NCBI GenBank assembly: GCA_028554795.2
Contig: CM068828.1
Coordinates: forward strand, 8,937,314-9,001,313
Origin: Sinohyriopsis cumingii
Lineage: Eukaryota > Mollusca > Bivalvia > Unionida > Unionidae
Reading direction: 5' to 3'
Length of the DNA stretch: 64,000 nucleotides
Shown here: positions 40,931-57,026 of the stretch, in pieces
Layout: each line of letters begins with the position of its first letter
How positions within the stretch are numbered: the stretch's first letter is position 1
Position numbers and translations under genes: made by a program
Notes under the pieces: model-generated
Seen by the model: the letters and a program-made list of their open reading frames with translations, nothing else
Told to the model about the DNA's origin: nothing
Databases searched by the model: none

Positions 40931-40946
40931 TTCGTTAGAAGTAAAT

Positions 40947-41175: not shown

Positions 41176-41267
41176 TTTTGGGATTTTTTTTTTAAATTTA
41201 AATTTAAATTTAAATTTAAAAAAGGGGTAGGCAATGGAAAGGCTATCTCTTTTCGAGAAATATGGCT

Positions 41268-41283
41268 GGCCCTGAAAAGGGCC
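41268..41283 (-). terminator. Histone-type 3' stem-loop for the 41308-41541 gene
   Basis: On the minus strand: GGCCCTTTTCAGGGCC, a six-pair stem with a TTTC loop, preceded by CCAAA and followed by AGCCA, then tttctcgaaaagagata about 15 nt downstream. It lies 24 nt after the stop codon at 41308. The 5' CCAAA flank, the loop and the downstream purine block are those of replication-dependent histone mRNAs. Confidence 0.85.
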
Positions 41284-41307
41284 TTTGGGTTTATGTTAAT
41301 GTATTCA

Positions 41308-41541
41308 TTAACATAAATGGTACCGCATTGGTCTTCTTCTTGTCCTTAGGCTACGTCTCACTGTTGGTCCGTAAATCAGCACTCTTTTCAGGCATCCTTG
41401 TCTTTCAACGTAGATCCTACGTATCCACAGGCTGGTGTTTGTCCTGTGGACAATGGTCCACTTGGATCGGACATACATGAGCATGTCCGTCCTAAACATC
41501 ATGGAAGACACAAGCGTAGAAGATTGCACATCGGTCCACAT
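41308..41541 (-). CDS. Small basic protein, outward-facing left terminal gene
   Basis: A 77-aa frame, start ATG at 41541, rich in Arg (GPTVRRSLRTRRRP near the C-terminus). No homologue recognised. It is supported by context rather than homology. A TATA box (ctataaat on the minus strand, 41586-41593) lies about 45 nt upstream, and a histone-type stem-loop lies 24 nt after the stop. It is divergent from the 41761 gene, with which it shares an upstream region containing a TGACGTCA palindrome. Several other frames overlap it; the strand choice rests on these two flanking signals. Role unknown; a basic DNA-binding or virion protein is possible. Confidence 0.55.
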   Translation of the reverse strand: MWTDVQSSTLVSSMMFRTDMLMYVRSKWTIVHRTNTSLWIRRIYVERQGCLKRVLIYGPTVRRSLRTRRRPMRYHLC

Positions 41542-41585
41542 CTTGAAGCGACGAGAACAAGTGAATCAATGCAGTGAACTGCGCT

Positions 41586-41760
41586 TATTTATAGGTACAG
41601 GAAGGATTGAAACGGATTGAATTCATTCACCAATCCGAACACGCGTTACAAAATTCAGTCAGCTCGCATCCAATCCGAAGAGAGCAGTCTGTGACGTCAC
41701 GTGGTCTATATAGATTCGTTAGCGCTTGTGTGCAGTCAATCTATGCGACAGTGATTCAAC
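41586..41760. promoter_or_regulatory. Bidirectional promoter region of the left arm
   Basis: TATA for the minus gene is at 41586-41593 (ctataaat, minus) and for the plus gene at 41707-41712 (tatata). Between them are two ccaatccgaa words (about 41630 and 41670, CCAAT-like) and the palindrome tgacgtca at 41692-41699 overlapping cacgtgg (CREB/E-box-like). Spacing from TATA to a TCAAT-type initiator near 41736 is about 25-30 nt. Factor identities are inferred. Confidence 0.6.
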
Positions 41761-42321
41761 ATGACGGAAACTCAGAAAACGATCCATTGGGGTGCACCAG
41801 CAGGGGAGACTGCCCAAGGGAACCCGGACTCACTTTCAGAAGAGGTACATTGGGATTTTGTGGATTTTCTTACCTCGCAAGAATTTGTTCCGGAACCTTC
41901 GTTACCTTCTTCATTACCGCAAGTGGAGAATTTTAGACAGAGACAGAAAGAAGAACTGGAGAAATTTATGCAACGACAAAAGGAAGCGGAACAAGCTTTT
42001 CTCCTACAGCAACAGCAACAGCAACAAGAAGAGGTAAGAAAAAAACAACAGCAACAACAGCAAGAAGAAGTAGCAGCAAAGAAACAAGAGGGTGAAAATC
42101 AAACGGCTACGGTACTGTTGGACATTTTAGCGGAGTTAAGAAGTCTGAAACAAATGTATCAGACTTCTTTATCACGACCGAAGAGAATACGACCTTCCCG
42201 AGCTAAACACGCCAACCCTGTGACTAAGCCTGTCGTACCACCCTTAGTGATTTCAACCCAATCATCAGAAGTAGGCCTTGGCCGTGGCAAAGGCTTAAGG
42301 CAGTTAAAGTTGATTGGTTAA
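41761..42321 (+). CDS. Gln-rich coiled-coil protein (stem-loop gene)
   Basis: 186 aa; ATG at 41761 follows a TATA box by about 50 nt. Residues 55-110 form a strongly helical, Gln/Glu/Lys coiled coil (FRQRQKEELEKFMQRQKEA, then poly-Gln stretches QQQQQQQEEVRKK). The C-terminal 60 residues are basic with SRPKRIRPSRAKH, a likely nuclear localisation signal. No family recognised. The gene ends 27 nt before a perfect histone-type stem-loop (42349-42364), so its mRNA is predicted to be non-polyadenylated. The general plan resembles the three right-arm stem-loop genes (short helical N-terminus plus low-complexity charged region), but I cannot show common descent. Confidence 0.75.
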   Translation: MTETQKTIHWGAPAGETAQGNPDSLSEEVHWDFVDFLTSQEFVPEPSLPSSLPQVENFRQRQKEELEKFMQRQKEAEQAFLLQQQQQQQEEVRKKQQQQQQEEVAAKKQEGENQTATVLLDILAELRSLKQMYQTSLSRPKRIRPSRAKHANPVTKPVVPPLVISTQSSEVGLGRGKGLRQLKLIG

Positions 42322-42348
42322 ACTCACTCCTACACCATAAAGAAAAAA

Positions 42349-42390
42349 GGCCCTTTTCAGGGCCACCCACATTTCTCGAAAAGAAATACA
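42349..42390 (+). terminator. Histone-type 3' stem-loop and downstream purine element
   Basis: GGCCCTTTTCAGGGCC at 42349-42364, with AAAAAA before and ACCCA directly after, then tctcgaaaagaaata. The stem, TTTC loop and ACCCA are an exact fit to the metazoan histone mRNA 3' end; GAAAAGAAA corresponds in position to the U7-pairing histone downstream element. Confidence 0.92.
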
Positions 42391-42412
42391 ATTTCAATTT
42401 GCCAATAACTCA

Positions 42413-42418
42413 AAAATA
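42413..42418 (-). terminator. Candidate polyadenylation signal for the zinc-knuckle gene
   Basis: AATAAA on the minus strand about 195 nt after the stop at 42612. No stem-loop follows this gene, so it belongs to the polyadenylated class. Confidence 0.45.
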
Positions 42419-42611
42419 AACCCCACCCATTTTACCCTTATAGTACGTGTCTGTGTATGAGTGCTTGAGTGTAGCTTCTTATTTTAAAATCAAAACTCAA
42501 AGACACTTACCTTATATCATTCATGTATTCTTTTATCCATTTTTTACAATCCAATTCACAATTCACCACAGAACACTTTAAAAAGTTCTTACACTTCTTC
42601 TTTCTCCTTAT

Positions 42612-43086
42612 TTAGTCTCTCTGTTTTTTCAATTTCTTCACCGTTTTTTCCTCATTTTCTTCCCTTCTTCTTTTCTTCTCCTGTTTCTTTGCCTCTTTTA
42701 AACAGAATTGTCTTCTTTCTTCCTCTTCTTCCTCTGAAGAATCCCTCTCTTCTTTCGAAGAATCCATCTCTTCTTCTGAAGAATCCTTCTTTTCTTCTGA
42801 CTCCTCTTGTTTCTTTTTTGGGCAATCTGGAGACCAATGTCCTTTTTCTTTACAATAATAACAGGTATCTTGACTTTTGTCTTTTTTAGCCCCTGTTTTT
42901 TTTTTTTTTTTTTTGACGGTCTGGACACTCTGAAGACCAATGCCCTTTCTTCTGACAGATATAGCAAGTATCTTGACTTTTATCTCGAAAGGAAGGAGAG
43001 TAGTCCGTCGGCTGGTCTGAAGAGAATTTTCTAATGACCCCTCGCAAAGCTCTGACGAAACGTTCCATCTGGATAGTCTCTTCCAT
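42612..43086 (-). pseudogene. Two-zinc-knuckle nucleic-acid-binding protein, frame broken in a T19 run
   Basis: From the ATG at 43086 (MEETIQMERF) the first frame has a CCHC knuckle, CYICQKKGHWSSEC, then a lysine run coded by the homopolymer at 42896-42914. The second frame, entered only by a shift at that run, has a second knuckle, CYYCKEKGHWSPDC, and a long Glu/Lys-rich tail. The two knuckles are clearly repeats of each other. CCHC knuckles of the Gag/CNBP type bind single-stranded nucleic acid; they are not part of the usual Polinton gene set. A shift in a 19-base homopolymer may be an assembly error, a real lesion or productive slippage. TATA (tatataaa, minus) is at 43142-43150, back to back with the PolB promoter. 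Confidence 0.7.
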
Positions 43087-43140
43087 CGTTGTGCTCGGCT
43101 TGAGAGTGAAATGAATAGTGAAAGGACAAGACACACACCC

Positions 43141-43175
43141 TTTTTATATACGCTGGTTTGCCAAGACTATAAATT
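43141..43175. promoter_or_regulatory. Divergent TATA pair between zinc-knuckle gene and PolB
   Basis: Minus-strand TATATAAA at 43142-43150 and plus-strand TATAAATT at 43168-43175, about 56 and 47 nt from their respective ATGs. Confidence 0.65.
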
Positions 43176-43221
43176 AGTCTATGGTGTTTAAACTTGAGTC
43201 ATTTGACGTTTTGCACTCAAG

Positions 43222-46200
43222 ATGAAACGATCCCATTCATTCGAGAAGAAAGAAGAAGAAGAAGAAAGTAAGAGGCAGAAACGTGATCTATCGCCTCGTA
43301 CCAGGGCTGAAATCTTGGCACAAATTCATGCCAGTGATTTTGAAGAGGACATGAGTGAACCAGAATCCGAACCCTCTAAACCAAGTTCACCACCCTTAGT
43401 CAACATTGAAAAGTACTATTCCATTCGAGAGACGGAAAAGCGCTCCTCTAGAAAATTTAGAACCACGGCTTACACCTACACGGTGAAGTTTAAAGATTTC
43501 AAGGCCGACGTACCCTTGGAGAAAGCAGAAGGGTTTATCACCGAGATGTGGGATTCTTTGCTCACCGCACTCAAGCGACAATGTCAAGCCAAAGAAGACG
43601 ATCGCTTGACACTATCCATAGATCACGACGGTTTGAAATCCCTTGTTTGGATCGAGTTTAGCAGACCCGCAGAACTGACCCCTTCCAAAGTCATGGACAA
43701 GATACAACAGGTGCAACAATCTAATGACCAGTTTGACATCACCGATGGTAAAGCCACACTGAAAATGGCCCACGTCTCTCCTCCTCAAGGAACTGGATGC
43801 AAAAAGATGTTATTGGTGGACGACCTTCGCAACACCAAAAAGAGTCTCGTCCGAATTAACAACCCTCAAGACCAGATGTGTTTAGCCCGTGCCATCGTGG
43901 TGGGACGAACCTATGCCAACAAGAACGACACGGTAGAATGGAAAAGAACCTGGAAAACTATTCAACGATGCGATCGAGCCAAACAACGAAACGAAGCAGA
44001 ACTCCTGTTACAACAAGCCGGACTGTCCAAAGACACACCCTGTGGCATTCCTGAGATGCAAAAATTGCAAGATGCCCTAGCTCCACGCTACACCTTGAAA
44101 GTGCACCCTCAAGAAATGCGTGGAACTCTGTTGTTTCGAGGCCAAGATTTTAAGGACGGAAAATACATTCATGTCTATCATCACGATGACCATTTCGATA
44201 CCATTACCAGTATCACTGGATTCCTGGGATACAGTTATTATTGTGAGAAATGTGACTATGGTTATAACAATCGAGAGCAACACAAGCATTGTGGAATGAA
44301 ATGCCCAGGATGTTTGGCCTCTCCACCCTGTCTGAGCGAAGGACCAGTGCCTTGTTCGACTTGTTTGCGCACGTTTGTCAGTCCTACCTGTTACCAACAA
44401 CATCTGAAGACGCAAGGTTCACAGCAGAAATGTGCTTGTCAACTCTTGAGATTGTGCCCTACGTGTAGACAAGGCATACGTACCAATAGTACCAAGGCAC
44501 ACGTATGTTCAGGAAAAAAAAAATGTCACATTTGTCACCGCATCGTGGACTTGGAACACCAATGCTACGTGCAAAAATACCAACCCCCACCAGAGAAAGA
44601 GGACGGTCACAAGAAGAAAGGCAATTTCATCTTTTTCGATTTCGAATGTATGCAAGAGACCGGCATTCACATTCCTAATTTCTGCGTGGCTCATCGAGCG
44701 TGCGAGAAGTGCATTCAAGAACCTATCTTCAGTCATTGCCCTCACTGCAGCAAGATTCCCGGAGGGCGTGAAAAAATCTTTCGGGGACCAAACACGTTAG
44801 CCGATTTTGCCCAATGGGTCTTAGACCCCATCGACAAGACGTGGAGCCAAGAGGACATCGAACGTTACGGAGATTGTCATCGTCATGCCACGGTGATGGC
44901 TCACAATTTCTCCGGATACGATGGACAGTTTCTTTTGAGGTACTATGCGGAACAAGGCACCGAGCGTCCTAAAGTCACTTTGAACGGAGCCAAAATCATT
45001 TTCATGCAAGTGGGACAAGTACAGTTTAAAGATTCGATGAGTTACTTGGCCATGCCTTTGAGTCGAATGCCTAAAACGTTTGGAATGACAGAAATGGCTA
45101 AAGGGTACTTTCCACACTTTTTCAATACGGAAGCCAATCAACATGCCGTTCTACCCCATTTGCCTGAGGCTCACTATTACGACCCCGACAACATGCGTAC
45201 CGAACAACGAGAAGCTTTCTACGCTTGGTACCAGGCTCATGCCTCCGACCCTTTCGACTTTCAGGAAGAAATGCTAAAGTATTGTCGTTCCGACGTGGAC
45301 ATTTTACAACGTTGCTGTGGAAAATTTCGAGAACTGTTCATGGAACACGGAGGGGTCGATCCTTTGAAAGAAGCTTGCACCATTGCCAAAGCGTGTTCCT
45401 TAGTGTACCGCCAACGATTCATGCCTGAAAACACCGTGGCTGTTATCAGTCCTCAAACGACCCACTATGTCAAGCGTCAATACTCGGTCAAAGCCCTACG
45501 TTGGTTACATTACTTGTGCGACAAGGAAGACAAATGGATTCAGCATGCCCGCAACGGAGGAGGCGAAAAGACCATCGGAACGTATTCGGTAGATGGCTGG
45601 GACTTAGAAAACCCCAAGATCGTGTACGAGTTTAACGGTTGCTTATTTCACGGATGTCCCGTCTGTTACCCTGACCGTGACACTAAAAATCAGTTTTTGC
45701 AACGAACCATGGAAGACTTGTACCAGGACACTTGTCAGCGACGCCTAAAGTTAGAACAGCAAGGATACCAAGTGGTGGAAATGTGGGAACACGAGTACGA
45801 TCACCGTTTGAAAACCGATCCCGAGTTTAAACGCCTCGTGGAAAGTTACCAGTTCATGGACCCGCTGAACCCGAGGGATAGTTTGTACGGAAGAAGGACC
45901 AATGCCACCTGTTTGCTGTACCAAGCCGACGAAGAGAAAGGAGAAGAAATCAAATACTTGGACGTGTGTTCGCTGTATCCCTACGTGTGCAAATATTGTC
46001 GCTTTCCTGTAGGGCACCCGCAATAGTTGACGGAACACATTGACCTGAAAAACATTCGACAATACGAAGGCTTGATCAAGTGTAAAGTTTTGCCTCCCAC
46101 GAACCTATACCATCCCGTCTTACCTCACCATTGTCAAGGCAAACTGATGTTTCTCTTGTGCCGTACTTGTGCCGAAACGTGCAACCAGGACCAACCTTGC

Positions 46201-47289
46201 CATCACAGCCAGGAAGAACGTGCCTTGACGGGAACCTGGGTCAGCGTGGAATTGTTCAAAGCTCTGGACATGGGATACCAACTGTTAGAAGTGTACGAAA
46301 TTTGCCACTTTCCCAAGACACAACAGTACCACAAGGGTGACCCTACTCAGAAAGGCATTTTCGCCGACTACGTGGATGCCTTTTTGAAACTGAAACAAGA
46401 AGCCAGCGGCTATCCTTCCTGGTGTCACACTCCCGAAGACCAAATACAATTCAAAGAGAAATACTACGCACAAGAAGGCATCTCTTTAGACCACATCGAA
46501 AAAAACGAAGGCAGGCGATCGTTTGCCAAAGTGATGTTAAATTGCTTGTGGGGTAAAATGGCACAACGACCGTGTTTACCCAAGACGGAATATTTGACAG
46601 AACCTTCCCGCTACTTCCAGATGATTCACGACAAAACCAAATACATGAAACACGTGGACGTCGTTCGAGAGGATTTGATCTTGGTCAATTACGAAGAAGA
46701 TCTGGACTTTGTACAAGACGACCCTTTTGGAAATGTCATCATTGCGGCTTACGTGACAGCTCATGCTCGCTTAAAATTGTACGAAGCTTTAGAACTGTTA
46801 GAAGAACGCATCCTGTACTTTGACACGGACAGTTGCATTTACATCCATCACCCGATTCAACAGCACCCTGACATCGAAGGAGACCGTTTAGGAGCCTGGA
46901 CAGACGAGCATCCCGACGACAAGATTCTAAGTTTCGTCAGTGGTGGTCCCAAAAATTACGGCTACGAATACCGGGACAAACAAGGAGAAGTGCACACGAC
47001 GTGCAAAGTGAAAGGACTGACTCCGAATCATCGTACCAGTCGAGTGGTCAACTTTGGGGTATTGAAAGAAGCCTTGCAATCGGGAGAGGATGGAAACTTT
47101 AAAGTGACCACCTATCAACCGAACAAGATTGTACGTTTACCCACTCACCACATCGTCAGTCGACCCTTGGAAAAAGTCTATCAAATTGTATACCAGAAGC
47201 GAGTGCGACTTCCCAATCACTTCACCTTACCGTACGGTCACGTCGGTATTGGTCTGTATATGAAAAGGAACCCTAGGCAAGATCGATAG
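43222..47289 (+). pseudogene. polB: Protein-primed family B DNA polymerase with in-frame TAG
   Basis: 1355 sense and stop-replaced codons from ATG 43222 to stop 47289, interrupted once by TAG at 46024-46026 (codon 935) with no frame change. Order: acidic/basic N-terminus; Cys-rich zinc region (residues 335-450); exonuclease I FDFE (about 472-475), II NFSGYDGQF (about 562), III YCRSDVDIL (about 687); nuclease-like VYEFNGCLFHGC (about 795); motif A DVCSLYPY (914-921); motif B KVMLNCLWGKM (about 1103); motif C YFDTDS (about 1199-1204); C-terminus near TLPYGH. The TAG lies between motifs A and B, so the truncated product could not polymerise DNA. Every other motif is intact, which suggests a recent nonsense change or readthrough. 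It replicates the element DNA by protein priming in related elements. Confidence 0.95.
46024..46026 (+). other. In-frame amber codon in PolB
   Basis: Context ccg caa tag ttg acg. A single substitution would account for it. The preceding CAA and following T resemble leaky-stop contexts only loosely. Confidence 0.9.
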
Positions 47290-47707
47290 TTCATTGTTCA
47301 TTGAAGTAACTTACCATGTCGTTGACGAAGAAGAAACCAGATTGGTTAGGAGTCAAATGTTGGACATCACCGAGACCAGGGTTTTGAGGCTTGGACACAA
47401 GAGGTGGCCCAGTAGGCACGAGAGTTATTCAAGGAAAAAAGTTACTTTTCAACCTGTGTTAGTGACGGTGCCAGAAGAACCCGTCACCCAGGACAGGACT
47501 GTCGTGGACAGGCCTGAAAGACCCTTTCGGGAGGACACTTGTTTGACCTTACCCCTACTATAGAACTGGTTAGAACTTTACCCAAAACATGTTGTACAGA
47601 CACTTGTGTTTATTCCACGTTCATGGTTATCATGTGCCTTTTGTTCTTGTACTTAAGCCTTTGGCTTTTATGCATTTTTGTCTTTCGTATTTATGTTTGA
47701 AACATTC

Positions 47708-47736
47708 AATAAACGTGTTCTGAAAAGGTATATAAA
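47708..47736 (+). promoter_or_regulatory. PolB poly(A) signal and ATPase TATA box
   Basis: AATAAA at 47708-47713 ends the PolB unit (about 420 nt after its stop). TATATAAA at 47729-47736 starts the next unit, 48 nt before the ATPase ATG. The two signals are 15 bp apart. Confidence 0.7.
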
Positions 47737-47783
47737 CTCTTGTCTTGTTTGTTTTTCGTGTCACAAGTGACATTTCTCACACC

Positions 47784-48527
47784 ATGGCTACCTCTGCTGT
47801 CTCTGCTCCCTCTTCCTCTACTGTCAAAGTCATCGACGAACACTTAGATCGTGCCAGTTGGGAGGCTTTGTATCTTCGCCATCCCTTTAACATGCTCATT
47901 GCTGGACCTAGCGGTTCAGGCAAAACCGAATTCGTCAAACGTTTGATCGAACATAAACATCATTTGATCGATCGACCCCCTCAACGAATCGTGTGGTGTT
48001 ACAAAGAGTGGCAATCGGCGTACAGCCTCTTGCGAGAAAGTCAAGGCGATTCCATCGTGTTTGTGGAAGGCATTCCTAAAGAAGACGACGGCATCGTCTC
48101 TGACTCCCGTCTAACCCATTTGGTCATTTTCGACGACATGTTAGGAGAAGACGAAGAAGAAATTAAACTGTGGTTCACGCGCAAAGGGCATCACCGTAAT
48201 GCCAGTGTCGTTTACATCACCCAAAATTTGTTTCAACAAAGTAAAGCCCATCGCACCATCAGTCTCAATGCGCATTACGTGGTCTTGTTTAAAAGCCCTC
48301 GAGATAAATCGCAAGTGCAAGTCTTAGCCAAACAGTTAGGAACGCCTTGGCTGACTCAGGCGTACGACGATGCCACTCAAACGCCACACGCCTATTTACT
48401 CGTCGATTTGAAACCTACGACTCCCGAGGATTTGCGATTTCGTACCCATTTGTTTCACCACTGGTGCCAAGACGGAGGGCCTGTCCTGTACACGTCTCCG
48501 TCCTCGACTTCATTTCACTCCCCATAA
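47784..48527 (+). CDS. FtsK/HerA-type genome-packaging ATPase (A32-like)
   Basis: 247 aa from the ATG at 47784 (accATGG context); the open frame extends 13 codons upstream but without ATG. Walker A is GPSGSGKT (residues 41-48), Walker B LVIFDDM (113-119), and a downstream sensor-like VYITQNLF is present. The length is usual for Polinton ATPases. It pumps DNA into preformed capsids in related viruses. The next gene's TATA box begins 8 nt after the stop. It is intact, with no lesion seen. Confidence 0.95.
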   Translation: MATSAVSAPSSSTVKVIDEHLDRASWEALYLRHPFNMLIAGPSGSGKTEFVKRLIEHKHHLIDRPPQRIVWCYKEWQSAYSLLRESQGDSIVFVEGIPKEDDGIVSDSRLTHLVIFDDMLGEDEEEIKLWFTRKGHHRNASVVYITQNLFQQSKAHRTISLNAHYVVLFKSPRDKSQVQVLAKQLGTPWLTQAYDDATQTPHAYLLVDLKPTTPEDLRFRTHLFHHWCQDGGPVLYTSPSSTSFHSP

Positions 48528-48534
48528 AAAAATC

Positions 48535-48542
48535 TATAAAAA
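48535..48542 (+). promoter_or_regulatory. TATA box of the 306-aa gene
   Basis: TATAAAAA, 8 nt after the ATPase stop and about 40 nt before the ATG at 48581. Confidence 0.6.
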
Positions 48543-48580
48543 CCTCAGACCCTTTTTCGTCTGTCTCACACAGTGCAAAC

Positions 48581-49501
48581 ATGACGTCCCTTCAGTCGCA
48601 TCTTCCCGTCAAATTGATTCGTGCCTTGTATGGCATCAATCGAGAAAAAAATCCACAAACACGAGCTCGTGTCTTAGAAGCTAGTCTCAAAGAAGTCTTA
48701 CGATGGTTCACGGTGACGGCACGTCAATTACTCCAAGGAATTATTCAGATTCCTCATCAAACCAAACGCTTTTTCGATCGAAACAAAGTCGCTTTGGTCC
48801 AACTGGCCGATCCCCGCATCGACACTCAAACCAAAAAACAAATAATTTTGAAACCTGGAGGGAGCGGTACTCTAGGAGGGGTCATCATTCGCTCACTCTT
48901 AAGATGGGATCCTAATGCCTCCAAAGTTATACCCAAGACAAAAGTCCAACGAAGCCCCAAGAAGAAAAAGACCAGGTCCCCAAGGAGAACTTCTCCAGTG
49001 GCAGGATCCTCCTCTGACCAGACACCACCACCACCCCGGAAAAAGAAAAGAAGCCCCCAGAAAAAGAAAAGTCCACAGAAAACTAGTCGCAAGAGAGGCA
49101 CTTCGGCCAGGACGCAACCTTACACTCGCAAACCACGACCTGCCACGGCAGTGACTGCGTCTCCGGCAGCTTCACGTTTGTCCACTTCTCCGTTAATGAC
49201 ACCCAGAACTGAAGAGTACTTGGAGACGTTGATCACACCAAGAACTTCTCCGTTGATGACCCCCAAAAGAACTTCCCCAGTGGCAGGACCTTCCAATTTA
49301 GTGGCAGTGGCTGCTGCTCACAAAGTACCTTCTCCCAAAATCAAAGTTCAAGAAAGATCGGGCATGTTACAAAGTTTACTGGATTTGTCCAAGCAAGAAC
49401 TGGCTCGATTTAGTCCGTTACGTACCCCTGCACGACGTGTCATGCCTGTCCTCAAACTAATACGACGTAAAGACAATCAGTGGCGACGCGTTCCAGTATA
49501 A
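48581..49501 (+). CDS. Basic virion-core-type protein, 306 aa (paralogue of the next gene)
   Basis: ATG at 48581 (aaacATGA). The N-terminal 105 residues are helical and end with KKQIILKPGGSGTLGGVII, a glycine-rich hydrophobic block. The remainder is disordered and very basic, with repeated SP-K/R motifs (RSPKKKK, RSPRR, KRSPQKKK) and repeated TSPLMTP words, like DNA-condensing core proteins or linker-histone tails. The helical domain follows the same pattern as the 138-aa protein downstream (L-x-G-I ... KK-x-x-L-x-x-GG), suggesting tandem duplication. The exact Polinton family name is uncertain; DNA packaging in the virion is the inferred role. Confidence 0.8.
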   Translation: MTSLQSHLPVKLIRALYGINREKNPQTRARVLEASLKEVLRWFTVTARQLLQGIIQIPHQTKRFFDRNKVALVQLADPRIDTQTKKQIILKPGGSGTLGGVIIRSLLRWDPNASKVIPKTKVQRSPKKKKTRSPRRTSPVAGSSSDQTPPPPRKKKRSPQKKKSPQKTSRKRGTSARTQPYTRKPRPATAVTASPAASRLSTSPLMTPRTEEYLETLITPRTSPLMTPKRTSPVAGPSNLVAVAAAHKVPSPKIKVQERSGMLQSLLDLSKQELARFSPLRTPARRVMPVLKLIRRKDNQWRRVPV

Positions 49502-49507
49502 AAAAGG
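49498..49507 (+). promoter_or_regulatory. TATA box overlapping the 306-aa stop codon
   Basis: TATAAAAAAG; the TAA stop (49499-49501) is part of it. A TCAGT initiator-like word is at 49527-49531, about 28 nt downstream. Confidence 0.6.
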
Positions 49508-49529
49508 CCTGTGACCAAGTCGGGTATCA

Positions 49530-49946
49530 GTGTTTTTTGGTGCTCCTGAAGACTCAAAGACGTCACCCTCCAGAAAACCCCAAGGAAAGAAAAGGAAAGG
49601 ACTGCCACCACGTTTAGCCAAACATGGGGACATGTTATCTGTCCTGTCCAAAGCTTCTCCACCCCTACGAAAAAAACTCATTCAAACAGCCTCCAAAGAG
49701 GTCATCGATACCTTGTGCGAATGTTGTTTGAACGTTTTGAAAGGCACGATCCCTTTGTCCAAACACCAGAAACAATGCTTAGGCAAACATCGTCACGTTC
49801 TTCGCCAAATGGTTCAAAAGAAAATTTCCATTCGTCAAAAAAAGAAGATGTTAGTGCAACGTGGAGGTATTTTACCTCTCTTGTTAGGCCCCATACTGAA
49901 AGGAGTCTTGGGAACCATGTTGGGAGGACTGGTGGGAGCAAGATAA
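49530..49946 (+). CDS. Conserved basic Polinton virion protein, 138 codons (start unclear)
   Basis: The body matches a protein common in metazoan Polintons/adintoviruses: PPRLAKHGDMLSVLSKA, ELIDxLCEC-like EVIDTLCECC, LKGTIPLSKHQ, then KKKMLVQRGGILPLLLGPIL. It is thought to be a minor virion or core protein. The conserved PPRLAKH part lies upstream of the only in-frame ATG (49632), and no in-frame ATG occurs between the upstream in-frame TGA (49512) and there. Start possibilities are GTG at 49530, another near-cognate codon, or a spliced leader. The downstream gene's TATA-like box overlaps the stop. Confidence 0.75.
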   Translation: MFFGAPEDSKTSPSRKPQGKKRKGLPPRLAKHGDMLSVLSKASPPLRKKLIQTASKEVIDTLCECCLNVLKGTIPLSKHQKQCLGKHRHVLRQMVQKKISIRQKKKMLVQRGGILPLLLGPILKGVLGTMLGGLVGAR

Positions 49947-49951
49947 AAAGG
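49942..49951 (+). promoter_or_regulatory. TATA-like box overlapping the 138-codon gene stop
   Basis: GATAAAAAGG containing the TAA stop 49944-49946, 44 nt before the ATG at 49995. Confidence 0.5.
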
Positions 49952-49994
49952 CCTCGGAAGTCCCAAGATCTCTGAATCGACCCCTGACAACCCC

Positions 49995-50633
49995 ATGGAA
50001 GGACGAAAACTAGCTTTAGTGCCTTACAAACGATGGATGGAATACCATCGGTGGCAAGAACAACACACCCCGCAATTACCTCCCAATCCCCATTTGAGCG
50101 AGATGTCCCAGTTACAACACGAATTGCAGTCCTTGATGGATCGCCAAGATTTGTCCGAAACAGAAAAATCGCAAAAGTACGGTCAACTCTTGCAACGACT
50201 GCAACTCTTTCACCAGAAAGCTTTAGACGAAACAGCTCTACCCACTCTGAAAGATTTTAAGACCTTGATGAAAAGTCCAGCACCATCACCAGTACCAGTA
50301 CCAGTACCACCAGTACCCGAGACCAAGACAGAAAAAGGAGAAGAAGAGGAAGGGTTTCAAACTCCACCAGAAAAAGTACGCAAGTTAACAACACCACCTA
50401 CCTCCAGAATTGGATGGATTAAAAAGATGATGGCCACCCCTTCTTCCTCACAAGAGAAAAAGAAAGTGAAGACAGAAGTGAAGACAGAAGTGAAACAAGA
50501 ACCGATATCCCCCGCTCAGACATCCTTCTCCTCTTCGACACCTATTGCTGGCCGCACACGCAAAGCATTGCAATCCAAGAAAATACCCCAAGAGAAAAAG
50601 AGTAGCATCCTCCAAGAGTGGGTGTCTTATTAA
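49995..50633 (+). CDS. Unidentified Polinton protein, 212 aa
   Basis: ATG at 49995 (cccATGG). It begins MEGRKLALVPYKRWMEY, a start similar to small proteins found next to capsid genes in other Polintons, followed by a helical segment (residues 35-95). A proline/valine-rich linker (PVPVPVPPVPE) and a basic tail with KTEVKTEVKQEP repeats come next. An S/T-P-rich and Lys-rich C-terminus suggests a nucleic-acid- or capsid-associated role, but I do not recognise the family. The integrase ATG follows 23 nt after the stop; no separate TATA was seen between them. Confidence 0.75.
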   Translation: MEGRKLALVPYKRWMEYHRWQEQHTPQLPPNPHLSEMSQLQHELQSLMDRQDLSETEKSQKYGQLLQRLQLFHQKALDETALPTLKDFKTLMKSPAPSPVPVPVPPVPETKTEKGEEEEGFQTPPEKVRKLTTPPTSRIGWIKKMMATPSSSQEKKKVKTEVKTEVKQEPISPAQTSFSSSTPIAGRTRKALQSKKIPQEKKSSILQEWVSY

Positions 50634-50656
50634 CACACCAACCAACACAAAAAAAA

Positions 50657-52084
50657 ATGGAAAAAGTCTTAGCCAGCATTTACTACGATCCCTCCCATCC
50701 TGCAGGTTACGCAGGAGTTCAAAAATTGTATCGTGCTGCCAAAACGCGACTGAAAAGTCTCCGTTTACCTCAAGTGCAACGATGGTTACAAGAACAAGCT
50801 ACCTACACTTTACACAAACCCATTCGACGCAAGTTTGCCAGAAGTCGCACCCGAGTGGAAGGCATCGATCATCAATGGCAAGCCGATTTAGCCGATGTCT
50901 CTCATTTGGCCAGCTACAATCGTGGCTACAAATATTTGTTTTGTGTCATCGACGTCTTTTCCAAATTTGCCTGGGTCGTGCCCTTGACTTCCAAATCGAG
51001 CAGCGAGTTAGTGCGAGCCCTGCAACGGGTGTTGAAACAAAGCGGTCGTCACCCTCTTCGATGGCAAACGGACAAAGGCACCGAATTTCTGAACCAAGCT
51101 TTCCAAAAAGAATTAAAGAAACGTGACATTCATTTTTTTACCACCGAGAATCCCGAAACCAAAGCCAGCATCGTGGAACGTTTTCAACGCACTTTGAAAG
51201 AACGCATGTGGAAATATTTTACGCATCACCACACTCTGAAGTACATCGACATCTTAACGCACCTGGTGCAAGCGTACAACCAATCTTACCATCGAAGCAT
51301 CGGACGTGCCCCGCAAGACGTGACTCCCGACAACGAAGTGTTGGTGTTTGAGCACCTGTTTGGTACGTCCCCGACGAGGGCTGTCCCCAAGAAAAGTGGA
51401 GAGTTGTCCGTAGGAGATTGGGTGCGCATTGGCAAAACCAAACGCACTTTCGACAAAGGTTACTTACCTAACTGGACGACCGAATTGTTTCGCGTCACTG
51501 GACGAGTGCATGGCCGTCATCCTGCCGTCTATAAATTGGAAGACATGAACGGAGAAGTGCTCAAAGGAACGTTTTATTTGCCCGAGTTACAACGTGTCAC
51601 CAAAAAAGAAGACGACGTGTATGACATCGAAAGCATTCTCGAACGCAGAACCCGTAAAGTGGGCAAACGACGTGTCAAAGAAGTCAAAGTACGTTGGAAA
51701 GGATATCCACCCAGTTTTGATTCTTGGATCGACGCTTCGCAAGTCAAGTTATTTCGTGCCCCGGTAGAACTGAACCAAGGACTGAATTTGATGTTCGTGT
51801 ATTCCGATGTGGTGGAGTACAACGTGGTGGGACACACCTCCGTACCGTTACTGCGTGTCATTCCTTTCGAAGTGGATTCTGCCACGAACACTGACGAGGA
51901 AGGTGGAAACACTTACCACGTCCACCGCGAATTTGTCCATCCTCACTATTTGCCTGTCAGTAAGTCGTATTTGGACACGGTCAACATTGCTATAAAAGGA
52001 GATCTGGGACAAAATATTCCATTCACCAAAGGAAAAGTCACGGTGAAACTCCATTTTCGAAAACGGTTCTCTCACGACTCTTAA
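50657..52084 (+). CDS. Chromodomain integrase fused to penton-like C-terminal region
   Basis: 475 aa from ATG 50657. It carries a retroviral-type integrase with catalytic D77 (WQADLADV), D139 (TDKGTEF) and E174 (KASIVERF), an exact D-x34-E arrangement. A chromodomain follows at about 322-366 (YDIESILERR ... VRWKGYPPSFDSWI). From about residue 379 (MFVYSDVVEYNVVG) to the end (GKVTVKLHFRKRF) the sequence is that of the C-terminal part of the Polinton minor capsid (penton) family, normally a separate gene of several hundred residues. The penton N-terminal part and the adenain-like protease that often lies between are absent. The fusion keeps the frame. A TATA box for the next gene lies inside (51991-51999). 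Integration activity appears possible; penton function is doubtful. Confidence 0.9.
   Translation: MEKVLASIYYDPSHPAGYAGVQKLYRAAKTRLKSLRLPQVQRWLQEQATYTLHKPIRRKFARSRTRVEGIDHQWQADLADVSHLASYNRGYKYLFCVIDVFSKFAWVVPLTSKSSSELVRALQRVLKQSGRHPLRWQTDKGTEFLNQAFQKELKKRDIHFFTTENPETKASIVERFQRTLKERMWKYFTHHHTLKYIDILTHLVQAYNQSYHRSIGRAPQDVTPDNEVLVFEHLFGTSPTRAVPKKSGELSVGDWVRIGKTKRTFDKGYLPNWTTELFRVTGRVHGRHPAVYKLEDMNGEVLKGTFYLPELQRVTKKEDDVYDIESILERRTRKVGKRRVKEVKVRWKGYPPSFDSWIDASQVKLFRAPVELNQGLNLMFVYSDVVEYNVVGHTSVPLLRVIPFEVDSATNTDEEGGNTYHVHREFVHPHYLPVSKSYLDTVNIAIKGDLGQNIPFTKGKVTVKLHFRKRFSHDS
51991..51999 (+). promoter_or_regulatory. TATA box embedded in the penton-like segment
   Basis: TATAAAAGG about 97 nt before the pX-like ATG, read as codons in the upstream gene. 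Confidence 0.45.
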
Positions 52085-52087
52085 GTC

Positions 52088-52504
52088 ATGTATCCAGTGT
52101 ACCGAGGGGTTGCTCGACAGCGAGGACACGGCTTAGGAGACATGTTAAAATCGGCCTTTCGTTCGGTGGCCCCGGTGTTGAAACCGATGGTGACACGCGG
52201 ATTGCACGCCTTGAAAGATGCGGCACTGACGCAAGGCAAAGAATTTCTCCAAAATGTCATCATCGACAAACAAAACCCTAAAGAAGCCTTCATGAGGGCA
52301 GGCAAAAATGTCTTGCTGCAAACGGGCAAAGACATTTTAGGCCAACGAGAAACACCTATAAATGCCCTGCACGCTACCGAGTCAGGCATTCAGCAAGGAC
52401 AAGGCAGAAAGAGACGACGAAGAAAACACCCTTTCACCAGACTTCAAGCGAGAAAGGCCAAGAAAAGAAGAACCGTTCGAGACTTAGACGTTTTCGATTA
52501 TTGA
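52088..52504 (+). CDS. Adenovirus pX/pVI-like core protein
   Basis: 138 aa; ATG 3 nt after the fusion gene stop. RQRGHGLGDMLKSAFRSV at residues 10-27 is the glycine-rich amphipathic helix block typical of Polinton pX-like proteins. After it come PVLKPM, a central helical region and a strongly basic C-terminus (GRKRRRRKHPF ... KAKKRR). Related proteins bind DNA in the virion or disrupt membranes; which applies here is unknown. It lies directly before the major capsid gene, as in other adintoviruses. Confidence 0.85.
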   Translation: MYPVYRGVARQRGHGLGDMLKSAFRSVAPVLKPMVTRGLHALKDAALTQGKEFLQNVIIDKQNPKEAFMRAGKNVLLQTGKDILGQRETPINALHATESGIQQGQGRKRRRRKHPFTRLQARKAKKRRTVRDLDVFDY

Positions 52505-52520
52505 GAAAAGAGACAAAAAA

Positions 52521-53834
52521 ATGATGCACCGAGAATCTTGCGCTTGTTCCAAGACGGAACTGGATCTGTTTGCCATGCCCCCTACCATGATGACCATGCA
52601 AGAATCCCCGTGGGTTGAATTTCACCCCGTCTCCTCACTGACCGATTCCGCTCCCATCGAGTTTGAAATCAAAGGACAGCCCGAAGATTACATCGATCTG
52701 AATAGCAGTTACTTGTACCTGAAAGTCAAAATTCTAGATAAGACTGGAGGTGCTATAGACGATGAAGCAGTAGCTCCCGTCAACAATTTCATGCATTCCT
52801 TGTTCAGTGGAGTGGACTTGTATTTGAATAACAAACTGGTCAGTAGCAGCATGGATACTTACCCTTATCGTGCCTACCTGGAAAATCTCTTGACGTACGG
52901 AATAGATGCCAAGAACACTCATCTCAATGCCTGTGTGGTATGGGAAGCTGACGAACCTACCAAGTTTGAAATATTGGAAACTGATGAAAAGAAAGACAAC
53001 AATGATGGATTTGTAGAACGAAGAAAGAGAATCACGGGAGCCGACACAAGTTTAGAACTGATGGATCGTTTGCATTTGGACATGTGGTTGCAAGAAAAGT
53101 ATTTGCTGAACGGGGTGGATGTCCGCCTGAGACTGAATCGTAGCAGTGCCGCTTTCCATTTGATTGCTGATAGTGACGGTTACAAAACCAAAATCCTAGA
53201 AGCCAGACTCTACGTACGCCGTGTGGAAGTGTTACCTAAAGTGGGAAACGACATCAGTCAGACGTTGAGCAGAACGACCGCCAAGTATCCCATACGACGC
53301 GTGGAAGTGAAAACCTTCACCATTCCCAAGGGACAGCGATCCATGATCGAAGATCATCTGTTCCAAGGACAGTTACCCAAACGTTTGATCGTTGGTATCG
53401 TCGAGAATACAGCCTTCAACGGAGCTGCCGAAAAAAATCCTTTCTACTTTCAACACTTTGGCGTGTCCAAAATCGAAGTCAGTCGCGATGGCAAGACCTT
53501 GTGTACCCGACCTTTCGAACCTGACTTTAAAAAGAAGAATTACTTGAGATCGTACTTGTCCTTGTACGAAGCCACCGGACAGTTAGGAACCAATACCAGT
53601 CACGGTATTACGTACGAGGATTATGCAGGAGGCTACGCTTTGTGGGCTTTCGATTTCACTCCAGACCAAGGCAGCGACGAGGGACATTTCCACCCTATAA
53701 AATCCGGCCAGATTCGTGTGGAAATTCAGTTTAAAGACCGAGACCCTGATGAAACGGTGAACGTCATCCTGTATGCAGAATTCGATAATATCATAGAAAT
53801 CAACAGTTTGAGAGAAGTCATCCTAGATTACTAG
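52521..53834 (+). CDS. Major capsid protein, double jelly-roll (hexon-like)
   Basis: 437 aa, ATG at 52521, a second in-frame ATG immediately after. It has the N-terminal SCACSKTELDLF and FHPVSSLTDSAPIEFEI, then NNFMHSLFSGVDLYLNNKL and YPYRAYLENLLTYG, a signature set of the Polinton major capsid family. Length is normal and no stop or frameshift was seen. It forms the trimeric capsomers of the icosahedral shell in related viruses. A possible TATA (tataaatg, about 52357) lies in the preceding gene. Tandem AATAAA signals follow at 53943 and 54041. Confidence 0.95.
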   Translation: MMHRESCACSKTELDLFAMPPTMMTMQESPWVEFHPVSSLTDSAPIEFEIKGQPEDYIDLNSSYLYLKVKILDKTGGAIDDEAVAPVNNFMHSLFSGVDLYLNNKLVSSSMDTYPYRAYLENLLTYGIDAKNTHLNACVVWEADEPTKFEILETDEKKDNNDGFVERRKRITGADTSLELMDRLHLDMWLQEKYLLNGVDVRLRLNRSSAAFHLIADSDGYKTKILEARLYVRRVEVLPKVGNDISQTLSRTTAKYPIRRVEVKTFTIPKGQRSMIEDHLFQGQLPKRLIVGIVENTAFNGAAEKNPFYFQHFGVSKIEVSRDGKTLCTRPFEPDFKKKNYLRSYLSLYEATGQLGTNTSHGITYEDYAGGYALWAFDFTPDQGSDEGHFHPIKSGQIRVEIQFKDRDPDETVNVILYAEFDNIIEINSLREVILDY

Positions 53835-53890
53835 AAACCATGGAAGACTGTTATCCCTCTTTACCTAGTGGAGAAACTTTTAGTGTTGCA

Positions 53891-54068
53891 TTGTTGTTAA
53901 AAAATGTTAGAGTTGTTGTTGTTTAGTGTTAAGTGATTTTTGAATAAAAAATGTTGTGTTTTGAAAAAATTGTTTGATGTTATATTGTTGGATTATTGTT
54001 AAAAATGTTAGAGTTGTTGTTTAGTGTTAAGTGATTTTTGAATAAAAAATGTTGTGTTTTGAAAAAAA
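53891..54068 (+). terminator. Duplicated poly(A) region of the capsid gene
   Basis: Two tandem copies (53891-53970 and 53993-54068) of a GTT-rich segment ending tttttgaataaaaaatgttg. Each has an AATAAA (53943-53948, 54041-54046). With no other poly(A) signal noticed after the ATPase, transcripts from the separate TATA boxes between 47729 and 52357 may all end here as a 3'-coterminal nest. Confidence 0.65.
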
Positions 54069-54173
54069 TGCCTTTGTCTTTTGTTTAGCTATAAGAATGT
54101 TGGATTGATGCTCTTTCATTTCTTACTATCCCTCTCATGACACTCACTGAACGTTGCGACTCAAAAACCGTGT

Positions 54174-54214
54174 GGGGGATGTTTTCCTTCACGTCCGCGC
54201 TTTGACTTTAAGAA
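54174..54214 (+). promoter_or_regulatory. Shared right-arm promoter element, copy 1
   Basis: gggggatgttttccttcacg followed by tccgcgctttgactttaag. The same element precedes the genes at 55119 and 56250. The TATA-like part is weak here (TTTAAG). Confidence 0.75.
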
Positions 54215-54266
54215 CCGGGGCAGTTTCCAGTCTAACCATCCGTTGTCGACTCATCCTCCTAAGAAG

Positions 54267-54623
54267 ATGTGCTCCAAACTAGCTAAACTCAACGAAGCCT
54301 ACGTGAATTTGCATAGGGTCAGACACAGTCTGATACCGAAGCCAGAAGAAATAGAGAATGTGAGAATGTTAAAAATCACTGAAGACCTGATAGAAGAGCT
54401 CTTCAGAGAAGAAATGAACAGGGAAAAAGAAGAATGGACAGAGAAGTACAGACTTCAGAGACAGCAGCAACAACAACAACAAGAGCAGCAGCAGCAACCT
54501 GAAGCTGACAGAGGCTTTGTCGATTGTCGTATCGACACCAAAGAGTTCTTCTTCTCTTTCCGAAGAAGCAGACCTATCGCCAGAAAGTCTATCCTCAGAG
54601 GACATCGCATTCTTAGAAACTAA
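54267..54623 (+). CDS. Coiled-coil protein, right-arm stem-loop gene 1
   Basis: 118 aa from ATG 54267 (aagATGT). The N-terminus CSKLAKLNEAYVNLHRVRHSL is an amphipathic helix like that of the next gene (TRLEKLLELHVHLEYARRIL). An acidic/basic coil (EELFREEMNREKEEWTEKY) and a Gln run follow, then a basic tail (RRSRPIARKSILRG). No family recognised. A histone-type stem-loop begins 27 nt after the stop. It is likely a paralogue of gene 2 by start, promoter and terminator similarity. Confidence 0.7.
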   Translation: MCSKLAKLNEAYVNLHRVRHSLIPKPEEIENVRMLKITEDLIEELFREEMNREKEEWTEKYRLQRQQQQQQQEQQQQPEADRGFVDCRIDTKEFFFSFRRSRPIARKSILRGHRILRN

Positions 54624-54650
54624 AAAGAATGCCATAGCAAACAAAAAAAC

Positions 54651-54690
54651 AGCCCTTTTCAGGGCTACCCAATACTCTAGAAAAGAAATA
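54651..54690 (+). terminator. Histone-type 3' stem-loop, right-arm gene 1
   Basis: AGCCCTTTTCAGGGCT (54651-54666) followed by ACCCA and then tctagaaaagaaataac. The first stem pair is A-T instead of G-C; the second G-C pair, loop and ACCCA flank are as in histone mRNAs. Confidence 0.88.
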
Positions 54691-55028
54691 ACAATCGATT
54701 TGCCAATGTGTGTAGGTGGAGTAGTGTGAAAATAAACACTAACTCTTTTTTAAAAAAATGTGAGGGTATGTGTTTGTGTGTTTGTGTTTGTAAGTGGTTA
54801 AGTAAGTTGGTATGGATAGTAGATTAAAATGATCTCTTTTTTTTTGGTGTTTGAGGTGTAAATTTGGGGTTAGATTGGATTGCTTTGCGTATGTGGATAG
54901 TCTATTGAAGTGATTTATAAAAAATTTTAAAATAGTGATGGGTAGCATAAAAAGTGAGTGAGTGTTTCTTTTAGGTCCGCGCGTTGTTTTATGGTCATGA
55001 TGTAGGTAAGATCAATTTTATGTTTTTA
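54667..55028. other. Spacer with duplicated segments
   Basis: 54640-54785 is largely repeated at 55515-55660 (gene 3' end plus acactaactctttttta and gagggtatgtgtttgtg). 54973-55028 (gcgcgttgtttt, ggtcatgat, aggtaagatcaatttta) is repeated at 56112-56159. No extra gene was seen. Confidence 0.7.
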
Positions 55029-55068
55029 GGGGATGTTTTCGTTCACGTCCGCGCTTTCACTATAAATT
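55029..55068 (+). promoter_or_regulatory. Shared right-arm promoter element, copy 2
   Basis: ggggatgttttcgttcacgt, ccgcgctttcac, then TATAAA at 55061-55066, about 53 nt before the ATG at 55119. Confidence 0.8.
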
Positions 55069-55118
55069 GAAACTTGTTCGGCAGTCCAGCTACCCTTGTT
55101 GATTGATCAACACCAAAA

Positions 55119-55493
55119 ATGAACACGAGACTGGAGAAACTGTTGGAACTTCATGTGCATCTGGAATATGCCAGGCGCATATTAAATGAACTGGCCGCGG
55201 AAGCCATTGTGGAGGAGGGAAGGATAAGAGAGGAGGAGGAAAGAAGAAACAAAGAAGAGGAGGAGAGAAGATATAAAGAAGAGGAAAGAAGATACAAAGA
55301 GGAGGAGAGAAGATGCAAAGAAGAGGAGGAGGAGGAAAAGGAGAGAAGAAGAAGAAATTTCAGAATCCCAGAGAGCGAAAATTGGGATTCTGAAGCGACA
55401 TATCCTGCCTCTGCTCTCTCCCCTCAAAAGGTAAAAAGTAATTGGGGGATAAGATGTGTATGCGGCGCCAGGCCTGGAAGGTGCCACCATTAA
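55119..55493 (+). CDS. Coiled-coil protein, right-arm stem-loop gene 2
   Basis: 124 aa from ATG 55119 (aaaATGA). N-terminal amphipathic helix as in gene 1, then a repeat of (Y/N/C)KEEE(E)RR units (residues 43-80) forming a continuous charged coil, then a Ser/Pro-rich tail ending CGARPGRCHH. The internal repeats are tandem at DNA level and probably vary in number between copies. A stem-loop begins 34 nt after the stop. Function unknown. Confidence 0.7.
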   Translation: MNTRLEKLLELHVHLEYARRILNELAAEAIVEEGRIREEEERRNKEEEERRYKEEERRYKEEERRCKEEEEEEKERRRRNFRIPESENWDSEATYPASALSPQKVKSNWGIRCVCGARPGRCHH

Positions 55494-55527
55494 CCAGGTG
55501 TCCATGAAGTTCCAAACAAAAAAAAAC

Positions 55528-55566
55528 AGCCCTTTTCAGGGCTACCCAATACTCTAGAAAAGAAAT
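55528..55566 (+). terminator. Histone-type 3' stem-loop, right-arm gene 2
   Basis: AGCCCTTTTCAGGGCT (55528-55543), ACCCA, then tctagaaaagaaataac, nearly identical to the copy at 54651. Confidence 0.88.
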
Positions 55567-55668
55567 AACGATCGATTTGCCAATGTGTGTAGGTAGAGTA
55601 GTGTGATTATAAACACTAACTCTTTTTTAAGATAGTGTGAGGGTATGTGTTTGTGTGTTGGTGCTTGT

Positions 55669-56036
55669 AAGAGCTCAGGTATGTTTGTGGGAATAGTAGA
55701 TTATGGGTTTCTTTATTGTTTCTTAGCGTAGGTGAAGAGTATAGTTAGGGTTCTGTAAGCGCTCACGTACGATTGTGTGGATAGTAGATTATGGATTAGT
55801 TTATTGTTCTTGGCGTATGTGTTTGTGTGTTTGTGTTTGTGTGTTTGTGTTTGTGTTTGTACCCGCTCACGTACGATTGTGTGAATAGTAGATTATGGAT
55901 TTGTTTATTGTTCTTAGCGTATGTGAAGAGTATAGTTTGGGTTTTGTAAGCGCTCACGTAAGATTGTGTGGATAGTAGATTATGGATTTTGTTTATTGTT
56001 TCTTAGCGTATGTGGAGAGTATAGTTTGGGTTTTTA
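55669..56036. repeat. Four tandem units of about 87 bp in the right arm
   Basis: Units start near 55669, 55757, 55859 and 55946, each with gctca(c/g)gta.g.ttgtg, gatagtagattatgga and tttattgttcttagcgta. A (GTTTGT)n run interrupts between units 2 and 3. No coding potential. Confidence 0.8.
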
Positions 56037-56090
56037 TTATATGAAATGAAAAAGTATAGTTTGGGTTTTATTATATGAAATGAAAAAGTA

Positions 56091-56200
56091 GGGGGATGTT
56101 TTCCTTCACGTTCGCGCGTTGTTTGGTCATGATCTAGGTAAGATCAATTTTACGTTTTAGGGGGATGTTTTCCTTCACGTACGCGCTTTAAGTATAAGAA
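56091..56200 (+). promoter_or_regulatory. Shared right-arm promoter element, duplicated (copies 3a and 3b)
   Basis: gggggatgttttccttcacg occurs at 56091 and again at 56160, followed by ttcgcgcgttg and tacgcgcttta respectively. Only the second is followed by a TATA box (tataag, 56193-56198), about 52 nt before the ATG at 56250. Confidence 0.8.
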
Positions 56201-56249
56201 CCCATAGTATTCGTCGTTCAAACCATTCTGCAAAGAATAAAAAAAGAAG

Positions 56250-56639
56250 ATGGCTTCTAACCAAATGGACAAAATACAAACATTACAAGACGTTTTAGAC
56301 AACTTAGGAATGATGGAGCAGATGTTAATAAGACTGGTTGAAGACCATTATTCCTATAGTCCCCATCGTGTAAAGATGGAAATTAATAACTTAAAAAAGG
56401 TAAAGGACAAGATTAGTGGTGTCATGAAAGAGATAAAGGAGGAGAAGGAGGATGAAGAGGAAAGAATAAGAATAAGCAAATGGAACGAAAAGATTGAAAA
56501 AGAAGAAGAAAATGAGAAGAGGAAGAAAGAAGAGGAGGAAGAGAAGAAGAAGAAAGAAGAGCAGGAGAAAAAGAAAGAGAAGAAGAGAAAGAGTGTTGGA
56601 GATAAAATAAGAACTTGGTGGAGAAAAAGAAGAAATTAG
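56250..56639 (+). CDS. Lys/Glu-rich coiled-coil protein, right-arm stem-loop gene 3
   Basis: 129 aa from ATG 56250 (aagATGG). The first 65 residues form an ordered-looking helical region (IQTLQDVLDNLGMMEQML). The rest is an almost pure Lys/Glu coil ending in a basic, Trp-containing tail (KIRTWWRKRRN). No family recognised. It is the rightmost gene, reads outward into the terminal repeat, and uses the repeat's own stem-loop 22 nt after its stop. Confidence 0.72.
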   Translation: MASNQMDKIQTLQDVLDNLGMMEQMLIRLVEDHYSYSPHRVKMEINNLKKVKDKISGVMKEIKEEKEDEEERIRISKWNEKIEKEEENEKRKKEEEEEKKKKEEQEKKKEKKRKSVGDKIRTWWRKRRN

Positions 56640-56652
56640 AAGCAGAAGAAGA

Positions 56653-57026
56653 AAACCCAAAGGCCCTTTTCAGGGCCAGCCATATTTCTCGAAAAGAGAT
56701 AGCCTTTCCATTGCCTACCCCTTTTTTAAATTTAAATTTAAATTTAAATTTAAATTTAAATTTAAATTTAAAAAAAAAATCCCAAAAGCCCGAACTCTAT
56801 TCCCCATGTTAATTTCCCCTTGTCGCTAGACAGACCCACACTATAGTTCCATGTTAAATTCCCCTTGTCGCTAGAGTGACCCACGATTTATTCCCATGTT
56901 AATTTCCCTTGTCGCTAATCTGACCCACGATTTTTCGCCATGTTAAATTTCCATTGTCGCTAATCTGACCCAGGGGTCTCTGTAATGCTAATTCCCATTG
57001 TCGCTAATCTCACCCCATTTACTACT
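56653..57026. repeat. Right terminal inverted repeat of the Polinton
   Basis: 374 bp partner of 40937-41292; carries the stem-loop, GAAA block, AAATTT hexamer run and five 45 bp subrepeats in mirror order. Confidence 0.95.
56662..56702 (+). terminator. Histone-type 3' stem-loop in the right TIR
   Basis: GGCCCTTTTCAGGGCC (56662-56677), preceded by CCAAA and followed by AGCCA, then tctcgaaaagagata. It serves the gene ending at 56639. Confidence 0.9.

Follow-up and report, generated by a model that had tools for sequence, protein, structure and literature searches.

Five small genes of a Polinton in the genome of the bivalve Sinohyriopsis cumingii end in stem-loops of the type found at the 3' ends of replication-dependent histone mRNAs. 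The Polinton (16,090 bp, positions 40937..57026) was recognized by its terminal inverted repeats, a 6-bp target duplication, and genes for DNA polymerase B (PolB), a packaging ATPase, and an integrase with a chromodomain. It is located in a 64,000-nucleotide (nt) stretch of contig CM068828.1 (GenBank assembly GCA_028554795.2, forward-strand positions 8,937,314 to 9,001,313), called the window here. The five genes, gA to gE, each consist of a single open reading frame (ORF) and are terminated by the six-pair stem-loop GGCCCU-UUUC-AGGGCC or its variant AGCCCU...AGGGCU. Since the stem-loop and the element downstream of it are of the same type as those of host histone genes, the gA to gE messages are likely to be bound by SLBP, cut by U7, and free of poly(A), as are host histone messages. 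We estimate the probability of this interpretation at about 0.83.

Stem-loops and the genes they terminate

The gene gA (41308..41541, minus strand) encodes a 77-amino acid basic protein and is divergent from gB. Its stop codon is located upstream of stem-loop SLa (41243..41288 including the downstream element, minus strand; stem 41283–41268), which lies in the left terminal repeat. The 186-amino acid protein of gB (41761..42321, plus strand, as are the genes and loops that follow) has an acidic N-terminus, a predicted long helix (amino acids 53–137), and a basic C-terminus, and its gene is followed by SLb (42344..42388; stem 42349–42364). The remaining three genes are gC (54267..54623, 118 amino acids), gD (55119..55493, 124 amino acids, Glu/Arg-rich), and gE (56250..56639, 129 amino acids, Lys/Glu-rich). 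Behind them are located SLc (54646..54691; stem 54651–54666, with an outer A-U pair), SLd (55523..55568; stem 55528–55543), and SLe (56657..56702; stem 56662–56677), respectively, the last within the right terminal repeat. No histone domain was found by Pfam in gB, gC, gD, or gE. Structure prediction for gB gave one long helix, with a predicted template modeling score (pTM) of 0.27.

An earlier reading of this DNA, made from its letters alone (the sequence-only reading), had reported five 16-nt stem-loops on the coding strand, 22–34 nt after the stop of a small gene and followed by a purine block. All five 16-mers were found exactly where they had been placed and on the same strands, and the distance from stop to stem was measured as 24 nt for gA, 27 nt for gB, 27 nt for gC, 34 nt for gD, and 22 nt for gE. 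The purine block is likewise present in all five, with GAAAAG beginning 13 nt past the stem. Each of the five RNAs folds into a hairpin with six pairs and a four-base loop. The Rfam model Histone3 (RF00032; gathering cut-off, 34 bits) covers all 46 model positions in every loop, with scores of 41.2 bits for SLb, 35.6 bits for both SLa and SLe, and 31.0 bits for both SLc and SLd. The covariance search that had been proposed as a check thus places three of the five loops above the cut-off and two below it. The histone-type assignment itself is supported by this model, by alignment with host histone 3' ends, and by other copies of the element.

The combination of loop, flank, and AAAAG was found five times in the window versus none in 300 Markov resamples, and a chance hairpin was therefore rejected. 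With up to three mismatches allowed, 8 matches to the bare 16-mer were found where 3.4 were expected; such matches are not very rare, and specificity rests on the exact stem together with the downstream block. The possibility that the loops are fragments of host histone genes adjoining the element was also rejected, as they are located inside the target duplication.

Host histone 3' ends and promoters

A histone H4 search of the host genome gave 114 matches, mostly in tandem arrays with a spacing of about 8.3 kb. For the comparison two stretches were read (L056 and L057), which are alike. In the host H4, H2B, H2A, H1, and H3 genes, the 3' stem is of the GGCCC or GGTCC type, the loop is TTTT, TTTC, or TTTA, and GAAAAG follows 13–14 nt past the stem in all five. 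For host H1, the closest match is an unnamed record (97%); Mytilus coruscus is the best among the named matches listed. Histone3 scores of the host loops (35.0–39.4 bits) fall inside the range of the element loops (22.9–45.6 bits). In the comparison that the sequence-only reading had proposed, the element loops align with the host histone loops over the stem, the flank, and the downstream element; beyond the latter, a TTTGCCA stretch is common to SLb, SLc, SLd, and host H2A. When the five element and five host loops are aligned, 60 of 60 stem cells are paired, and two stem pairs are changed on both sides (G-C to A-U in gC/gD and C-G to U-A in host H1). In 500 shuffles of this ten-loop alignment, the paired percentage was reached in 3 and the count of both-side changes in 29.

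The mouse H2a downstream core AAAGAG pairs with CUCUUU of U7, according to the available part of PMC7026596. AAAGAG is present in SLa and SLe, and AAAGAA takes its place in SLb, SLc, and SLd of the window. Candidate target sequences for U7 pairing are GAAAAGAGATA and TCTAGAAAAGA. The Rfam model for U7 found nothing in the host genome, nor in 14 control genomes. In the mechanism we propose, SLBP would bind the stem-loop of the gA to gE messages, and the U7 particle would cut these messages downstream of the stem, leaving them without a poly(A) tail. Expression of the five genes would peak while DNA replicates, with rapid decay afterwards. This may serve to couple non-histone proteins to DNA replication; those of gA and gE are basic, and gB could be a regulator, although this is a guess.

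Three of the genes also resemble host histone genes in their promoters. A 24-nt module, M1 (GGATGTTTTCNNTCACGTCCGCGC), occurs in four copies ahead of gC, gD, and gE with at most one mismatch (0 expected). The copies upstream of gC (54177..54200) and gD (55031..55054) have no mismatches, while the two upstream of gE (56094..56117 and 56163..56186) have one each; all are on the plus strand. The same module is found in the host promoters of H1 (0 mismatches) and H2B (1 mismatch). A second module of 21 nt, M2 (TTTCTTTTAGGTCCGCGCGTT), is exact in both the gD promoter (54965..54985, plus strand, 0 mismatches) and the host H4 promoter. The best 24-mer matches to host histone promoters were 23 for gC, 22 for gD, and 22 for gE, versus at most 19 in 25 shuffles each. 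The divergent gA/gB promoter region (41542..41760) has TATA-like sequences on both sides, TGACGTCA, and CCAAT, and the gA promoter has only a chance-like 10-mer in common with host histone promoters. Because promoter matches to the host are confined to gC, gD, and gE, these three look like histone genes at both ends, while for gA and gB the resemblance is limited to the 3' end. M1 and M2 probably originated by capture from host histone genes, and their presence in both sets of promoters provides indirect support for use in S-phase. A literature search with a piece of the promoter module returned no histone-promoter paper, as judged by titles and the beginnings of abstracts.

Two of the loops are located in the terminal repeats, as might be the case for hairpins that act at the level of DNA, as signals for replication, packaging, or recombination, and that are like histone ends by chance. 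This explanation appears extremely improbable, since in the window each loop is on the coding strand at 22–34 nt past a stop, the flank and the distance to GAAAAG are the same as in host histone genes, and histone promoter modules precede three of the genes.

Other copies, polyadenylation signals, and opposing evidence

The host genome (2.9 Gb) contains 45,801 matches to the exact loop pattern RGCCCTTTTCAGGGCYASC and none to the reversed control; none of the five loops in the host histone unit that was read fits this pattern. Counting sites with no more than one mismatch, M1 is found 45,765 times, versus 0 for its control. At five loops per element, the 45,801 loops give an estimate of roughly nine thousand element equivalents, and this family could be one of the most abundant repeats in the genome. 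Exact M1 sites form 43 clusters in the first 6.7 Mb of contig C1. The layout of copies was analyzed for the first 100 listed exact loops, which span 3.8 Mb of one contig. None of these lacks another loop or an M1 site within 20.5 kb. Divergent loop pairs 1069–1107 bp apart occur 18 times (1081 bp in the window), 53 of the 57 exact M1 sites are no more than 1.5 kb away from an exact loop, and the full five-loop order is present in ten copies.

From 75 scored Histone3 matches in the genome, 30 loci were fetched and inspected. All 30 hold element genes, and no histone was found in them by tblastn. The presence of a loop after each gene was counted at loci where the loop itself had not been the bait. 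A loop with at most three mismatches follows gB in 22 of 22 copies, having six pairs in 18 and AAAAG in 22, in every case kept at 13–14 nt; a loop follows gA in 10 of 12. Twelve left-end regions were fetched by way of the right-end loop, nine of which contain the 3' part of gB, and in all nine the loop follows with at most one mismatch. Among 15 SLa contexts fitting one upstream pattern, an MWT ORF precedes SLa in 14, and the stop is located 21–24 nt before the loop in 12. In an environmental homolog of gB (P0258), the C-terminal tail, WPISGPPTSLEKR, looks like a translated stem-loop and downstream element, and for this reason a stem-loop is likely to follow gB in the source of P0258 too. Neither a relative nor a loop was revealed by scans of IMG/VR, for which two stem-loop patterns, the capsid protein, an alignment of capsid proteins, and the N-terminal part of PolB served as queries.

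The ratio of nonsynonymous to synonymous divergence (dN/dS) was determined relative to the window copy. Its median for gA is 0.11 (26 related ORFs; median dS 0.93, such high dS values being rough for genes this short). The ratio is 0.12–0.23 for gD (6 copies), 0.05–0.06 for gE (2 copies), and 0.12 for gC (1 copy), and for gB the median is 0.52 at low divergence (16 copies). The dN/dS values of gA, gD, and gE are well below 1. Some copies, L031 among them, differ from the window copy at synonymous sites by more than 1 in gA and by about 0.07 in gB, and this strong difference between neighboring genes hints at recombination between element lineages. Some copies also adjoin other Polinton pieces (L063:8914–9498 and L064): a distant ATPase (27%) is located beside one, and in L064 the gC and gD genes are followed by another gA-gB pair.

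The strong similarity to host modules, the youth of many copies, and the decay of some loops are what would be seen if promoters and 3' ends had been captured from host histone genes, multiplied with the element, and since become inactive. We regard such a relic as very unlikely, because loops and downstream elements persist where the synonymous divergence of gA or gD is about 0.4–2. The paired change of G-C to A-U in two loops also argues against it, although those two loops are a single duplicate pair.

A number of observations weigh against processing of the gA to gE messages in the manner of histone messages. The loops at 54651 and 55528 are below the gathering cut-off, at 31.0 bits each (E value, 3e-5). 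The five loops are not independent but of three kinds, because those at 41268 and 56662 are two copies of one terminal repeat (arms 100% identical), and those at 54651 and 55528 sit in a 184-nt direct repeat of 90% identity. The gB promoter has no histone module above shuffles (best match, 17 versus 18), the host H3 promoter contains neither M1 nor M2, and the host H2A promoter has only a reversed M1-like site with four mismatches. In other copies a loop was located after 13 of 17 gD genes, 1 of 2 gC genes, and 2 of 4 gE genes, and of the two gE loops one is that of gD. By our reading, most of the misses are low-complexity mis-hits. The gD rows L012, L014, L026, and L067, the gC row L028, and the gE rows L006, L025, and L030, which we read as low-complexity or misplaced matches, are kept in these denominators. 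Ten copies near gB are young (87.5–98% identical), and the conservation seen there therefore counts for little on its own. Lastly, five distant loci (L001–L005), obtained from a scan of genome contigs, come from bacterial bins and have capsid identities of 27–45%. On these mostly partial contigs there is no Histone3 match at E≤1. Presence in related elements, which the sequence-only reading had put forward as a test, thus holds for the other copies in this genome, while these five relatives give no match, and the feature may be limited to one lineage.

Polyadenylation signals form a further point on this side. AATAAA is present downstream of gB, at 93 nt from the stop, and of gC, at 107 nt, which makes polyadenylation possible there. 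The messages might then have dual ends, being normally polyadenylated at the downstream AATAAA and processed in the histone manner only in S-phase or to a minor extent. This is an unlikely account, given that neither AATAAA nor ATTAAA is present within 400 nt after the gD or gE stops, and that AAAAG at 13–14 nt is retained in all of the 22 gB copies. The putative capsid gene has AATAAA 108 nt past its stop and no stem-loop, and neither AATAAA nor ATTAAA occurs within 400 nt after the stops of the genes from PolB through the ORF preceding the capsid gene. This arrangement suggests two classes of message in the element, of which those of the block from PolB to the capsid gene would be polyadenylated in the ordinary way after the latter.

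Returning to histone-type processing by SLBP and U7, we lean toward the broader view that the element took over a complete histone kit, comprising the promoter modules and the stem-loop/U7 3' end. Its messages would then be the first non-histone messages of metazoans to end like those of histones; the available text of PMC6303110 describes histone messages as the only protein-coding ones of metazoans whose 3' ends lack poly(A). The 45,801 loops outnumber the histone genes, and active copies could compete for SLBP and U7. If this is correct, a mobile element with histone ends and promoter modules would be a natural case of foreign gene expression coupled to S-phase. It would provide a genetic handle on the role of the histone 3' end apart from histones. 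One would also have to ask how histone processing of the host stays intact when its genome carries tens of thousands of viral stem-loops.

The element, its surroundings, and known systems

The Polinton is bounded by an exact 6-bp target duplication, TTCGTT, at 40931–40936 and 57027–57032. The outer limits of its terminal repeats are 40937 and 57026. PolB (43222..47289, plus strand) is in two pieces, both matching PF03175, with an in-frame TAG interruption at 46024–46026 in the window copy. The packaging ATPase is A32-like (47745..48527, plus strand; PF04665), and the rve integrase (50618..52084, plus strand; PF00665 and PF00385) carries its chromodomain (PF00385) C-terminally, at residues 335–377. 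The gene at 52521..53834 (plus strand) encodes a putative major capsid protein, a label that no search result gives it; its named homologs are "F54H12.2-like". This putative capsid protein has no Pfam match. Its nearest named relatives are bivalve proteins (52%, Mercenaria), and unnamed ENA proteins reach 78–86% identity to it. An antiparallel ORF with a CCHC zinc knuckle (42612–43136, minus strand) is located between gB and PolB.

Outside the target duplication, the element is flanked by an inverted repeat pair of 2.4 kb (36638–39045 and 58151–60558, 99.5% identical). Each arm holds a 562-amino acid ORF without a Pfam match, for which no match was reported in regions L058–L069. A near-perfect long hairpin at 39668–39758, also outside the element, is related to repeats at 16190–16303 and resembles a small foldback transposon. 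Retroelement pieces with an integrase H2C2 zinc domain and a SCAN-like domain are found at 3654–5386 (minus strand).

In the literature searched, no account of a virus or transposon with histone-type ends was found. The closest is PMC12220804, whose available text lists six Rfam matches to the histone 3'UTR stem-loop in Polinton-like viruses or virophages without comment, none of them among its cryptophyte elements. The statement of the sequence-only reading that it knew of no description for Polintons or adintoviruses therefore needs a small correction. The stem-loop is of the same kind as in that collection (n = 6), where, in the available text, it appears as a bare count, without genes, downstream element, promoters, or mechanism.

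The replication-dependent histone 3' end (RF00032), with SLBP, U7 snRNP, and CPSF73 as its factors, has in common with the element the six-pair stem, the four-base U-rich loop, the ACCCA-type flank, and the purine core 13–14 nt on. The element differs in that its genes are non-histone and that two loops, with an outer A-U pair, score below the gathering cut-off; the 3'-end signals are known here from sequence. PolB, the rve integrase, and the packaging ATPase are all present, as in Polintons/Mavericks, along with terminal inverted repeats, a 6-bp target duplication, and a putative capsid gene. The C-terminal chromodomain of the integrase is shared with adintoviruses. The adintovirus definition includes a PolB with an N-terminal OTU-like domain, according to the available part of PMC11071296; DNA_pol_B_2 was the sole domain found by Pfam scan in the PolB of the element. 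The element is set apart from Polintons/Mavericks and adintoviruses by its five accessory genes, which have 3' ends of the histone type and, in three cases, histone promoter modules.

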